Assembly (NCBI GenBank): GCA_947852905.1
Contig: CANTVF010000002.1
Location: forward strand, 124,001 to 188,000
Origin: an uncultured Tidjanibacter sp.
Lineage (GTDB): Bacteria; Bacteroidota; Bacteroidia; Bacteroidales; Rikenellaceae
Direction: 5' to 3'
Length of the DNA stretch: 64,000 bases
Shown: positions 35,978-40,158 of the stretch, piece by piece
Position numbering within the stretch: position 1 is the stretch's first letter
Layout: every line of letters begins with the position of its first letter
Program-made: the position numbers and the translations under genes
The notes under the pieces: model-generated
Seen by the model: only the letters and a program-made list of their open reading frames with translations
Databases searched by the model: none
What the model was told of the DNA's origin: nothing

Positions 35978-36276
35978 GGAATTTTACCGTGCCGGTACTA
36001 CGCCGCACCGAATAAAAAACGACCGCACGGTACAGGGCTATCTCCCGCCCGCCGGGCTAACGGCAACTATACGAACGGTTAACGGCATCGCCCGCAACAG
36101 CTATACGAACTTCACCATTTAACAGTATCCGCAAACTCGTCCATCCAGCTAACCGTTACGGCACTACCTCCGTCATATTACAATAAAGATGCGCCATGCA
36201 GTGAAGCATGGCGCACCGAATTATTACAATATATCTAATCATAAAGAATTCTAAAACTCTACTCAGCAACCCGTTA
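35978..36276. other. Left edge of the restriction-modification island
   Basis: About 300 bp without a gene between murI and the endonuclease gene. Base composition shifts from GC-rich to visibly AT-rich around 36175-36280, which marks the probable island boundary. It contains the terminator at 36190-36215. I could not find flanking direct repeats. Confidence 0.5.
36190..36215 (-). terminator. Terminator of the restriction-modification operon
   Basis: A perfect 10-bp stem (TGCGCCATGC with GCATGGCGCA) and a six-base loop, followed on the minus strand by TCTTTATTG. It lies about 60 bp past the endonuclease stop codon. Confidence 0.8.
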
Positions 36277-37860
36277 TTATTGATACAATGACATTGATGA
36301 TTCAAGATACCCCACAAACTCTGTAATTTTATACGGTCTAATTGTAAGTCCATCTTCAGCCTTTACCCATTTAATCTGTCTATGTGTATCTGCAAATATT
36401 GATGGAGCCACAAAAATACCTTGACAATCATTTGTTGCGTATTTATCTTTAAACTCTTCCAAATGACGAGTAATTGGCCATACTTCCATCATAGTTTGAG
36501 TACGTCCTTCAGACATTGTTACCTCAACCAATATCGCGTTCTGATGTTCTACACATTCTATATCTCCTTTATTGCCACTAGCAGTAGATGTAGGCAAGCC
36601 AGTATCATCACACGCATAATTTGGGACAACTCTCACTGCCGGTAATTTAGACTTTACGGCTAATGCCGTAAGAAACTCTAATCGTACTGAACTTGGCAAT
36701 AATTTCAATATTTCGTCTTTTGACAATTTCCTTTCAGCTAAATTATACAACTCGTGTTTTATGGATTCCCAGTCATATATATTCAGCCAATTCATTAATA
36801 ATGCTTCACTCTGATTTGGTGAAATAGCCTCTGTATGTATATCGAATAGGTTACTATCAATCGTAGCCATATAGTCAAAGTATGTCCGCTCAGTTTCATA
36901 CTTGCGATATTTAACATAATGGGCTAATACATATTCGATCTTTCCATCTTCCATATGGTTGATGTCAATGAAGCGTCCCGCACCTCGTAGAGAAATCAAT
37001 CCTGTCAAACGCATTTTACGAATAAACTCGTCGGGATATTCACTTACAATGGATTTAGGCTTAAACTTTTTAAATTCGCCCCCCATTATTTCTTTAGTGC
37101 AAATATCTATAATTACTTCGTCACTCGGATTGTAACCGTATTGCCGTCTTAACAATTTTATTCTCTGATAAAGTGCCTCTGCATCATTATCTTTCCAAAA
37201 AATCAACAATGGAAGCTCCTGTCGAGATATTCCTGTTCCATTATATTCAGGATCTGCATTAAGTTTCAGTATTGTTTGAAGCAATAATATTAAAGGTACA
37301 TTATCATTCAGTACACGTATAAACGGATTGTTCCTTTGATATTTACACATAGCCTGCAAAAAGGCCTGTTGCTCATATTCCGGATATTTCTCTTGAGCTA
37401 TTATAGAATCGCCTTCAATTTTTACTGAATATATTGACGCAAACTTGGTTCCCAATTCAGAAAAGAAAATAGGCTCATTCGGAGCATAGTAAACAAATCC
37501 TAATTCTTTGGGAAAGTCGTAAAATGTAGCAAATCGAGAAGGAAATCCTTTTGCAAATCCAGCTTCTTTGTGATTCTGCGGATTGTGTTCTAAAATATAT
37601 TGTACCTCTTCATCATTCAAAATATAATCGGCAAACTCTCCTTGAGGAGACGATTTCCATTTCCATTTTATAGCCGCTGTTGTATTCATTGGTCTATATA
37701 ATCCATAGCGAATTATCTCAGCAACTATATTTGTCGCCAAATCATCGGACAAAATTTGCCTATCAAATTTTTTGAGTACCCACAACAAAGCTTTTAACCG
37801 TTGGGGATTACGCACCGTCGTAGTAAACAGCAACGGTTTATATTCTGCACTTCTCGACAT
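36277..37860 (-). CDS. AlwI-family type IIS restriction endonuclease
   Basis: The 527 aa protein matches the AlwI-family pattern: an N-terminal region starting KPLLFTTTVRNPQRLKALLW, the central FWKDNDAEALYQRIKLLRRQ, and a C-terminal PD-(D/E)XK-like nuclease core with D433 in GNKGDIECVE and E446-V-T448 in ILVEVTMSEGRTQ. Family members cut at a fixed distance from GGATC or related sites; the exact site here is inferred only. It starts 2 bp after the second methyltransferase gene, the third gene of a tight operon, so it is made last, consistent with protection preceding cutting. AT-rich codon use unlike the flanking genes indicates horizontal acquisition. No frameshift or truncation is evident. 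Confidence 0.75.
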   Translation of the reverse strand: MSRSAEYKPLLFTTTVRNPQRLKALLWVLKKFDRQILSDDLATNIVAEIIRYGLYRPMNTTAAIKWKWKSSPQGEFADYILNDEEVQYILEHNPQNHKEAGFAKGFPSRFATFYDFPKELGFVYYAPNEPIFFSELGTKFASIYSVKIEGDSIIAQEKYPEYEQQAFLQAMCKYQRNNPFIRVLNDNVPLILLLQTILKLNADPEYNGTGISRQELPLLIFWKDNDAEALYQRIKLLRRQYGYNPSDEVIIDICTKEIMGGEFKKFKPKSIVSEYPDEFIRKMRLTGLISLRGAGRFIDINHMEDGKIEYVLAHYVKYRKYETERTYFDYMATIDSNLFDIHTEAISPNQSEALLMNWLNIYDWESIKHELYNLAERKLSKDEILKLLPSSVRLEFLTALAVKSKLPAVRVVPNYACDDTGLPTSTASGNKGDIECVEHQNAILVEVTMSEGRTQTMMEVWPITRHLEEFKDKYATNDCQGIFVAPSIFADTHRQIKWVKAEDGLTIRPYKITEFVGYLESSMSLYQ

Positions 37861-37862
37861 GA

Positions 37863-38768
37863 TCAGTAGTTGGTTACTAATACTTCGTTAAACTCTTTAA
37901 TCGTATTGTCGTGATAACTAATATAATTACTTTTTATCGGATAAACATTATATCTGGCACACCACTTTATAAAGATAGTATTCTCTCGCTCTTTATAATG
38001 CGTTACGTTAGAAATTGCAAAACGAATTCTTTTATCATTCAACTTATCCAGTAAAGCAAGCAACTCTTTTTCGTTCTTTTCATTCCATAATTTATTGTAT
38101 TCACTGAATGTTATCAGATATGGTGGGTCTAAATAAATTAAGTCTCGCTCAGACAACTTCAATCCTTTTATAAATGCTTTATAGTCCTTATTATACCAAG
38201 TAGGATGTTTTAATACAATCTGTTCAAAATACTCATTAAGCGTGGCAACAACATTTGCATTGAAGTCCACATTTCCAACAGGCAGATTGAAATCTCCGTT
38301 TTTATTGAACCGCAACATCCGATTAAAACCATATATAATTAACAGATATAAAAGTGTCATATTTTTTCGAGACGATTGGTTAAAATCAGCTCTCATTTTT
38401 ATATAAGCCTCCTTATTGAATTGCGCGAAATATGTCTTCTTAAAAACTCGTTTTAATTCATGGGGAATAATATCCTCTTTGTATGAGCGTGATAACCCAT
38501 AATAATACACTAATTCATCAATTAAGGCAAACAACTTATCTGGATTGTTGGCGTATTTACTTAGATGACGATGTAGCTTAATAACATAAGAATCAATATC
38601 ATTAAGATAATATTCATTGGCTCTTACATTCATAAAAACAGAGCCACCTCCAACAAAAGGCTCTATAAACGCATCTATCTCTTGTGGAAAATATTGCCTT
38701 ATCTCTTTGATTAATTTATATTTATCTCCAATATAAAAGAACGGAGACCTCAATATTTTTTCACTCAT
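37863..38768 (-). CDS. Dam-like DNA adenine-N6 methyltransferase
   Basis: The 301 aa protein belongs to the D12 class (Dam/DpnM): motif X RSPFFYIGDKYKLI (7-20), SAM-binding motif I FIEPFVGGGSVF (34-45), the Dam-type MLRFNKNGDFNLPVGN stretch (151-166), and catalytic DPPY (214-217). The Dam-like features imply methylation of adenine in a GATC-containing site, consistent with an AlwI-type GGATC/GATCC target. It overlaps the upstream methyltransferase by 4 bp (ATGA) and ends 2 bp before the endonuclease start. AT-rich, part of the transferred island. Confidence 0.88.
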   Translation of the reverse strand: MSEKILRSPFFYIGDKYKLIKEIRQYFPQEIDAFIEPFVGGGSVFMNVRANEYYLNDIDSYVIKLHRHLSKYANNPDKLFALIDELVYYYGLSRSYKEDIIPHELKRVFKKTYFAQFNKEAYIKMRADFNQSSRKNMTLLYLLIIYGFNRMLRFNKNGDFNLPVGNVDFNANVVATLNEYFEQIVLKHPTWYNKDYKAFIKGLKLSERDLIYLDPPYLITFSEYNKLWNEKNEKELLALLDKLNDKRIRFAISNVTHYKERENTIFIKWCARYNVYPIKSNYISYHDNTIKEFNEVLVTNY

Positions 38769-40102
38769 TGCAGCACTTCTGTAATAAACAAAAGTTCTTT
38801 ATGGTCTATAAATTCTGTTTTGCCAGTATTAAAACATTTATGGGCACAATCATAAATCGTAGTTTTTCCCCTTTGCTCCAAAATACTACGAATTTCTTCT
38901 AACGTAATCTTATTTTTAGAAGAATTGCTTTTAGAATTATATGTATTATTATATGATACAACAATATATTTGACTCGTAATTTCATAATGAGATCCTTAA
39001 ATGTTGCTCTCGCACTCGTTGTACAATATGCACTCATATTTTGAGGCCTCGGTTTCATCGCGACACCATATAATTCAGGTTTTTCCCATGTTGTCAGATT
39101 TTCATAAATATGATAGAATCTGCTATATTGACGAGAATTATATGGTGGATCTATATAAGCTACATCTGCGCTCACTCGTTCCGCCAACACATTGGAATCC
39201 TCACGATAAATTTCTACTGATTTTGGCGCTAATGGTTTAATTAACTTAAATGTTAACGGATGATACTCTATTGCCTTCTTAATATAAGCATCAAAATGCC
39301 CTACTGTATTTGCAATCTTGTCAATACTGTATATCAACGAAGCCAATAATATTGCATATTCCTTTTCAGTCAATGACTCTCTGCGCATTTCTATATCTTC
39401 CCTAATCCAACCAATAAGTTTTGCATTCTTATAATCAAAAAACTTATTACCAAAATTATCAGAAAAATAATTTGTTGATATGTTATCTGGATCTATGCTG
39501 TTGTATTGTACTAACAGATTTGATAAATTTGTAATTTCATATTCACCTTTACCAAAAAAAGCTTTGTATATAATATTATTAGAAAATAGGAAATCATTCA
39601 TAATAATATTATCTACATATGGTATCACAGCCTTTGATACGGCTGCAGTACCAGCGAATACATCAAAGAAACTATGAAAACCACCCGTATGTTCTTGAAT
39701 GATATTAATAATCCATTGCGTTAGTTTTGCCTTACTCCCAATATACCGCCTACTTTCTAGCTCAAATCGTTTGACAGAATCAGTAGATAGTTTTGGAAAT
39801 AAAGAAGGTATTTCACCTAATCTTATTTTCTCGGCAGCTAGTTTTATTGCCTCCAGTTTATATTCATTATCTCCATCAAGAGTAAATAATATCTTCTCAG
39901 AGCCAAGTAACACCAAAGAATTATGTTCATCACAACCATACAAACGAGCTAAATGCATTACTTGATCTTTTGTAGGTAATCGTCTGCCGTTCTCAATCCG
40001 ACTAAGCAATGTAATATCTATGTTTGTACGCCTATAAACTTCTTGTAAAGGCATATTAAGTTTTTCTCTGACGTCTTTAAGGTATTGTCCTATTGAGTTC
40101 AT
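38765..40102 (-). CDS. DNA adenine methyltransferase with N-terminal XRE-type HTH domain
   Basis: From the ATG at 40102 the product is 445 aa. Residues about 2-60 form an XRE/Cro-type helix-turn-helix (IGQYLKDVREKLNMPLQEVY, then LLSRIENGRRLPTKDQVMHL), a domain usually found in separate controller proteins. A methyltransferase follows: motif X RRYIGSKAKL (about 119-128), motif I FFDVFAGTAAVS (about 145-156) and DPPY (318-321). I infer that it methylates one strand of an asymmetric target and represses its own promoter through the HTH. An in-frame ATG at 40129 is rejected, because it lies inside the -7 region. First gene of the operon. Confidence 0.82.
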   Translation of the reverse strand: MNSIGQYLKDVREKLNMPLQEVYRRTNIDITLLSRIENGRRLPTKDQVMHLARLYGCDEHNSLVLLGSEKILFTLDGDNEYKLEAIKLAAEKIRLGEIPSLFPKLSTDSVKRFELESRRYIGSKAKLTQWIINIIQEHTGGFHSFFDVFAGTAAVSKAVIPYVDNIIMNDFLFSNNIIYKAFFGKGEYEITNLSNLLVQYNSIDPDNISTNYFSDNFGNKFFDYKNAKLIGWIREDIEMRRESLTEKEYAILLASLIYSIDKIANTVGHFDAYIKKAIEYHPLTFKLIKPLAPKSVEIYREDSNVLAERVSADVAYIDPPYNSRQYSRFYHIYENLTTWEKPELYGVAMKPRPQNMSAYCTTSARATFKDLIMKLRVKYIVVSYNNTYNSKSNSSKNKITLEEIRSILEQRGKTTIYDCAHKCFNTGKTEFIDHKELLFITEVLQ

Positions 40103-40112
40103 GCATACACGC

Positions 40113-40129
40113 TTGACATTTTTTGTCAA
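40113..40129. promoter_or_regulatory. Putative operator of the restriction-modification operon
   Basis: TTGACA (40113-40118), five T, TGTCAA (40124-40129) is a perfect 6-bp inverted repeat. It overlaps three bases of the -7 element and the predicted transcription start, where a bound HTH dimer would block polymerase. Confidence 0.6.
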
Positions 40130-40158
40130 AATTAGAAGTAAAATACCTTATATGCAAA
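40127..40158 (-). promoter_or_regulatory. Promoter of the restriction-modification operon
   Basis: On the minus strand TTTG (40158-40155), 20 bp, TAATTTTG (40134-40127): perfect matches to both Bacteroidetes elements. Predicted start near 40121 leaves about 19 nt before the ATG at 40102. A transferred island thus carries a promoter native to the phylum. Confidence 0.85.

Follow-up and report, generated by a model that had tools for sequence, protein, structure and literature searches.

A predicted AlwI-family restriction-modification operon headed by an adenine methyltransferase with its own helix-turn-helix module and a probable operator

A stretch of 64,000 nucleotides from an uncultured Tidjanibacter sp. 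(GenBank assembly GCA_947852905.1, contig CANTVF010000002.1, positions 124,001 to 188,000; hereafter the window) carries a restriction-modification (RM) operon of the AlwI family, in which three genes, M1, M2, and R, follow one predicted promoter. Judged from the DNA sequence, the first product is probably a methyltransferase with a built-in controller that represses its own operon. The main evidence is a palindrome placed over the promoter of M1, which recurs upstream of relatives of M1 that carry the same N-terminal module and upstream of genes in which this module stands free or is joined to another enzyme.

The operon and its predicted promoter

The three genes occupy positions 36277-40102, all on the minus strand, and encode proteins of 445 amino acids (aa) (M1, 38765..40102), 301 aa (M2, 37863..38768), and 527 aa (R, 36277..37860). 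M1 and M2 overlap by 4 bp and M2 is separated from R by 2 bp, as had been described in an earlier interpretation made without database searches (the sequence-only reading). M1 consists of an XRE-type helix-turn-helix (HTH) module (aa ~1-105) followed by a D12-class N6-adenine DNA methyltransferase (aa ~111-445). The Pfam search confirmed the N-terminal HTH that had been claimed for this adenine methyltransferase, with matches to HTH_31 (E 8.6e-10), HTH_3 (1.6e-8), and HTH_19 (1.6e-8) that together cover aa 4-60 and exceed the curated cut-offs, while MethyltransfD12 matched aa 120-354 (E 2.4e-29). M2 is a Dam-like enzyme of the same D12 N6-adenine class (MethyltransfD12, 2.9e-33; TIGR00571 dam, 4.4e-42, above its cut-off), and its aa 105-296 align with the Dam methylase of PDB entry 1yfj; DPPY motifs are present in both M1 and M2. 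The endonuclease matched RE_AlwI (PF09491; 1.4e-38, 133.5 bits against a cut-off of 23.1) and, across aa 1-526, the PADLOC model REase_II (5.6e-130), and its aa 364-515 are common to the nicking enzyme N.BspD6I. Two D12 methyltransferases adjoin the endonuclease, the matches to HTH, D12, and AlwI all lie above their cut-offs, and the assignment to AlwI-type RM operons was upheld.

A predicted Bacteroidota promoter (40127..40158, minus strand) precedes M1. It reads TTTG (40158-40155), 20 nt, and TAATTTTG (40134-40127), in agreement with the consensus, including the TAnnTTTG -7 box, that is quoted in PMC7366714. The predicted operator, TTGACA-N5-TGTCAA (40113..40129, no strand assigned), is a perfect inverted repeat located 10 nt before the M1 ATG, and the last 3 bases of the -7 box belong to both elements. 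Of the two candidate starts of M1, the ATG at 40102 is preferable, because the TTG (40129) of the mechanically called open reading frame (ORF) falls inside the repeat. A probable operator overlapping a Bacteroidota -7 box before M1 would be new here. No second copy of the repeat turned up in the 64-kb window even at 2 mismatches, and a search of the 150 nt before M2 and before R found no TAnnTTTG, which leaves room for promoters of other types. With a single predicted promoter and no TAnnTTTG inside the operon close to M2 or R, the HTH-carrying M1 should control the three genes together.

Autorepression is the most economical reading of this arrangement, with M1 most likely acting as the autorepressor of a single M1-M2-R transcript. 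Between them, M1 and M2 would modify adenine in both strands of an asymmetric site, and R would cleave beside sites left unmodified. The HTH module would dimerise on TTGACA-N5-TGTCAA, where bound M1 would block RNA polymerase by covering the -7 box together with the likely start of transcription. The level of the operon would then be set by free M1, being high on entry into a naive cell and damped as M1 accumulates, and unmethylated sites in the naive chromosome may hold M1 off the operator until modification is finished.

Recurrence of the fusion and of the operator

Of the 393 genomes of the order, 23 (counting this one) had an RE_AlwI match, and 20 stretches obtained from 18 of the 22 other genomes comprised 5 with an HTH-M1 fusion, 5 with an M1 without HTH, and 10 with no recognisable M1. 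A scan of genome contigs yielded at least 577 relatives of M1. The best 80, a selection in which HTH carriers are favoured, included 33 HTH-M1 fusions (32 found by phmmer, plus L118, the HTH of which has diverged). The arrangement, which the sequence-only reading had held to be otherwise unknown, thus recurs, but it is sparse: among 395 genomes drawn from the phylum, a full-length match to M1 (E 1e-10) was found in this genome only (0/394 others), and a partial match to R in one other genome. The HTH-M1 loci in our tree belong to Bacteroidota, except two from Spirochaetota and one from Ignavibacteriota. M2 was recognised at 32 of 37 such loci (5 from the order and 32 from the scan) and an AlwI-family R at 33, with 30 loci having the pair. 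Seven loci are incomplete: L098 is cut off by the end of its contig, and the others have no recognisable M2 or R despite further sequence. A chance artefact or misassembly as the source of the fusion was ruled out by genome G109, which has these three genes too, with a 75% identical HTH-M1 and an operator that matches at 12 of 12 positions.

We then scored the region from -120 to +25 around gene starts against the window's TTGACA-N5-TGTCAA as the only template, with a threshold of at least 10 of 12. The starts of HTH genes were set by alignment to the HTH, and for the other genes the earliest start codon in the ORF was taken; the duplicate loci L101 and L135 were removed before the threshold counts, and near-identical loci such as L080/L081 were retained. 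The site was present in 32 of 39 HTH-M1 genes (31/38 without the window, which defines the motif) and in none of the 51 M1 genes without this HTH. It was also found in 14 of 17 genes encoding the HTH as a free protein, each from a different genus, and in 14 of 15 HTH-Fic fusion genes, all from one genus. The spacer of the HTH-M1 sites was specific, since N5 gave 32/39 and each other spacer from 1 to 10 gave 0-5; the maxima for non-N5 spacers were 5/39 for HTH-M1, 1/51 for M1 without HTH, 6/17 for free HTH, and 0/15 for HTH-Fic genes. The other ORFs (at least 150 aa) of the HTH-M1 loci had a site in 3 cases out of 224, one of them heading an operon in which it is followed by the free HTH gene of L058, itself a miss in the count of 17 free copies. 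When each region was compared with 300 dinucleotide shuffles (window and L118 excluded, duplicates kept), p was ≤0.02 in 29 of 37 HTH-M1 regions and in 1 of 53 regions without HTH. The left arm coincided with a TAnnTTTG -7 box at 30 of 32 HTH-M1 sites, 9 of 14 free HTH sites, and none of the 14 Fic sites. In the HTH-Fic loci (L163-L167, L170-L172, L174, L176, L178-L181, and L183), the commonest upstream form is TGACTAAATTTGTCAAGAC.

Several observations weigh against autorepression through this site. Seven HTH-M1 loci remained under the threshold with scores of 7-9; by eye, a degenerate site occupies the usual position in two of them (L082 and L107), two (L116 and L117) have a half site, and three (L062, L099, and L118) have no site. 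At 2 or fewer mismatches the motif occurs once in the 64-kb window, where 1.7 occurrences are expected by chance, so the evidence for the operator is its place and conservation rather than its mere presence; moreover, part of the left arm would be conserved as promoter regardless. The HTH-Fic genes count as about one case, because all 15 come from one genus. Kinship likewise inflates the contrast of 32 sites against none. A tree of 90 M1 domains, 51 of them without this HTH, requires the HTH label to change 8 times, at least 4 times on starred branches, which is a point in favour; several end branches are long, and the bootstrap had not settled. The operator tracks the HTH in an average of 2.7 of the only 4 independent contrasts that starred branches provide and runs counter to it in none (p 0.25). 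What carries the claim is accordingly the spacing and the recurrence in separate contexts, namely, the M1 fusions, the free controllers of 17 genera, and Fic, counted as roughly a single further case, rather than the bare 32 versus 0.

A probable portable controller module and rival readings

The conserved N-terminus of M1 (aa 1-105) is longer than the HTH and ends in a tail with the consensus SDKI...GLE.L.VAE.K, which is also found in free proteins of about 100 aa. Since aa 1-105 also exist as a free protein, M1 amounts to a complete controller plus a methyltransferase. The module (E 1e-6) was matched in 42 of the 395 phylum-draw genomes, this one included, and the 17 free copies examined, from 17 genera, comprise 14 from phylum-draw loci and 3 from AlwI stretches. 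Nine of them lie directly beside a DNA methyltransferase (L046, L168, L169, L177, L182, L184, L186, and L187 by Pfam, and L072 by phmmer similarity to M2), three beside a restriction helicase or an AlwI endonuclease (L044, L185, and L064), and one (L051) has an Eco57I-type methyltransferase two genes on; two adjoin an AAA/OLD-like ATPase (L058 and L173), and the neighbours of the remaining two (L175 and L188) have no recognised domain. The 15 HTH-Fic loci all belong to genus g211, with Pfam Fic found in the 7 tested and the HPFIDGNGR motif in the other 8. The module is apparently a portable controller that also serves Fic fusions. That the fusion replaces a separate controller, as had been proposed, is supported insofar as the same module occurs free beside RM genes with the same operator. 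The role of such a controller is recovered only in part, though: because R shares the predicted transcript, the fusion could adjust expression of the operon as a whole but, in contrast to a classical C protein or M.SsoII, would have no separate R promoter to delay.

In known RM systems, small HTH controller (C) proteins, with the C.Csp231I/C.EcoO109I class as the closest, control RM genes, and it is conceivable but unlikely that M1 works as they do, activating the operon at low and repressing it at high concentration while R expression is delayed. Free relatives of the module do adjoin RM genes, and C.Csp231I, which has two extra C-terminal helices, also uses an N5-spaced repeat (CTAAG-N5-CTTAG; PMC3115060). 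Against this, the window has a single site, which covers the -7/start region and is thus placed where no activator would be expected, it lacks a second site, and R has no visible promoter of its own. The operator also differs from those of C proteins in its half-site, in being single rather than one of two, and in having no GACT..AGTC C-box; a C protein, moreover, is a free small HTH protein, whereas the module of the window is fused to M1 and has its free homologues elsewhere. A profile search against PDB returned generic XRE repressors and weak matches to C.BclI (7.8e-4) and C.AhdI (0.081), and none of the 60 matches listed, out of 73, is a chain named C.Csp231I.

It is less plausible still that the HTH is non-regulatory, adding DNA affinity or specificity to the methyltransferase, and that the palindrome reflects promoter conservation: the many M1 genes without this HTH and the attachment of another N-terminal module (RadC) elsewhere would fit, but the right arm, TGTCAA, is outside the promoter consensus and is nevertheless kept at a fixed spacing, only with the HTH here, and the free HTH and HTH-Fic genes come with the same site.

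Autorepression by HTH-M1 may be part of something wider, which we put forward as a speculation. A family of Bacteroidota controllers could share one operator code, GACA-N5-TGTC, and be plugged as free proteins into RM and other defence operons and as fusions into adenine methyltransferases and Fic proteins. With a common operator, an incoming system could be repressed by one already resident, and as unmethylated sites could titrate HTH-M1 off its operator, transcription of the operon would read the methylation state of the genome.

M.SsoII and the C5-cytosine methyltransferases M.Ecl18kI and M.EcoRII resemble M1 in having an HTH N-terminal to the methyltransferase and a palindromic operator over their own promoter. 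M.SsoII is likewise a C5-cytosine enzyme (PMC3978073), whereas M1 is of the D12 N6-adenine class. The M.SsoII site, AGGACAAATTGTCCT, shares the half-site GACA/TGTC with the M1 operator (PMC6100179), but the spacer between the two halves is N3 instead of N5. M.SsoII stimulates a separate R promoter, whereas R of the window lies downstream on the same strand after a 2-bp gap, and the window operon has, unlike M.SsoII, a second methyltransferase. The AlwI system itself combines an AlwI-family endonuclease with two adenine methyltransferases, as in the window, but joins both in one chain, with no HTH mentioned in the passage of PMC4081073 that describes it; in the window they are separate and M1 has the HTH. 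CR.NsoJS138I is, like M1, a controller fused to an RM enzyme and is active in both roles, but there a C.PvuII-type controller is fused to the endonuclease of a type IIP system (PMC3850674), while in M1 the controller is on the methyltransferase. Two reviews (PMC12707154 and PMC3874152) exemplify methyltransferase-HTH repressors by Ecl18kI, SsoII, and EcoRII, and no HTH-adenine-methyltransferase/AlwI operon was found in the titles and abstract openings listed from open-licence papers; database annotators may well have listed such genes already. If correct, our reading would extend the principle of the self-regulating methyltransferase from C5-cytosine enzymes to adenine and type IIS systems and would offer a concrete operator sequence for a direct binding test. 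The series of fused, free, and absent controllers on homologous RM genes provides a comparison for why RM control circuits differ, and the shared operator makes cross-regulation among defence operons directly testable.

Recognition target, acquisition, and related loci

AlwI recognises GGATC (cleavage 4/5), and the sequence-only reading had proposed GGATC/GATCC for the window's operon as well. This proposal found no support in site avoidance: GGATC was not avoided in 264 kb of this genome (observed-to-expected ratio [O/E] under a Markov model, 0.92) or in 120- to 200-kb samples of four other genomes with HTH-M1 operons (O/E 0.94-1.41). Its apparent depletion in the window under a plain shuffle (87 vs 155.6) vanished under the Markov model. 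AlwI-family enzymes have several specificities (PMC9799307), and the target could, as a tentative suggestion that is compatible with autorepression, be another asymmetric site, such as CCATC/GATGG. CCATC showed its strongest depletion in this genome (O/E 0.45, z -11.2); samples of eight other genomes gave 0.75-1.02. GATGC/GCATC sites have been reported for an AlwI-family-like system (PMC9799307), and in MhoVII GATG/CATC is protected by two strand-specific adenine methyltransferase activities (PMC12898733). On the other hand, M2 is Dam-like, G109 is not depleted (1.02) with an R that is 60% identical, and seven of the eight other genomes show a milder depletion (0.75-0.93). At least three other N6/N4-type methyltransferase-family matches in this genome (two to PF01555 and one to PF07669, with none to PF00145) could also account for the deficit. 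GGATG depletion was strongest in G356 (O/E 0.39; 0.78-1.09 elsewhere). In this genome (G000; the window plus L198-L207), CCAGG/CCTGG is nearly gone (O/E 0.12), yet no C5 methyltransferase (PF00145) was found in it, and in G113, of the same genus (L208-L217), GATC has an O/E of 0.02, with 36 counts on both strands of 200 kb.

The operon is flanked, by Pfam, by genes for a shikimate kinase and a topoisomerase subunit A on one side and for an Asp/Glu racemase and FtsK on the other, and its GC content is 33%, compared with 51% for the window. The kinase and racemase genes are 660 bp apart in G113 and about 3.9 kb apart in G295, of the same family, and lie on different contigs in G213 (same genus) and G359 (same family); no RE_AlwI match was found in G113 or G213. 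The low GC content and the closely spaced flanks of G113 without the operon indicate that it is probably an insertion, acquired horizontally, the tight empty arrangement being seen in just one of the four related genomes. A terminator-like hairpin (36188..36217, minus strand; 12 pairs and a T-rich tail) follows R. It is supported by its length and place only, as such sites are no commoner than in shuffles (2 in the region vs 2.2).

The phage, IMG/VR, and plasmid collections searched gave no indication that phages or plasmids carry the fusion. Of the 11 phage records with a match (10 rows among the matches listed), just one covers the HTH and just one covers at least 80%; the single IMG/VR locus has no HTH match. 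Among the 60 plasmid matches listed, out of 100 plasmid records, none begins before residue 78, and only 3 cover at least 80%, all from residue 78. The phage record that covers the HTH, L197 (MT836408.1), titled 'UNVERIFIED: Bacteriophage sp.', carries an HTH-M1 operon close to that of L069, but its neighbouring ORFs are, by eye, bacterial housekeeping genes, and it looks like a fragment of a bacterial chromosome.

In four of the 13 pairs of loci compared (L080/L081, L089/L090, L092/L095, and L100/L102), M1 and M2 are 85-98% identical and R is 32-33% identical, which suggests that one methyltransferase pair can be followed in turn by different AlwI-family endonucleases, divergent in sequence but compatible in specificity. 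Behind the M1 of L094, L106, and L111, R is broken into two open frames, as if modification had been retained and restriction lost. Finally, 13 of the best 80 scan loci, mostly from candidate phyla (L130, L131, L136, L137, L143, L145, L147, L148, L153, and L156-L159), have M1 genes of about 600 aa with an N-terminal extension of about 270 aa. The extension is UPF0758_N plus RadC by Pfam in the 3 tested, 2 more read alike, and the other 8 were assigned by length; a RadC-methyltransferase fusion would here head an RM operon. In L148 and L156, a separate 68-aa HTH gene lies immediately upstream of the extended M1.

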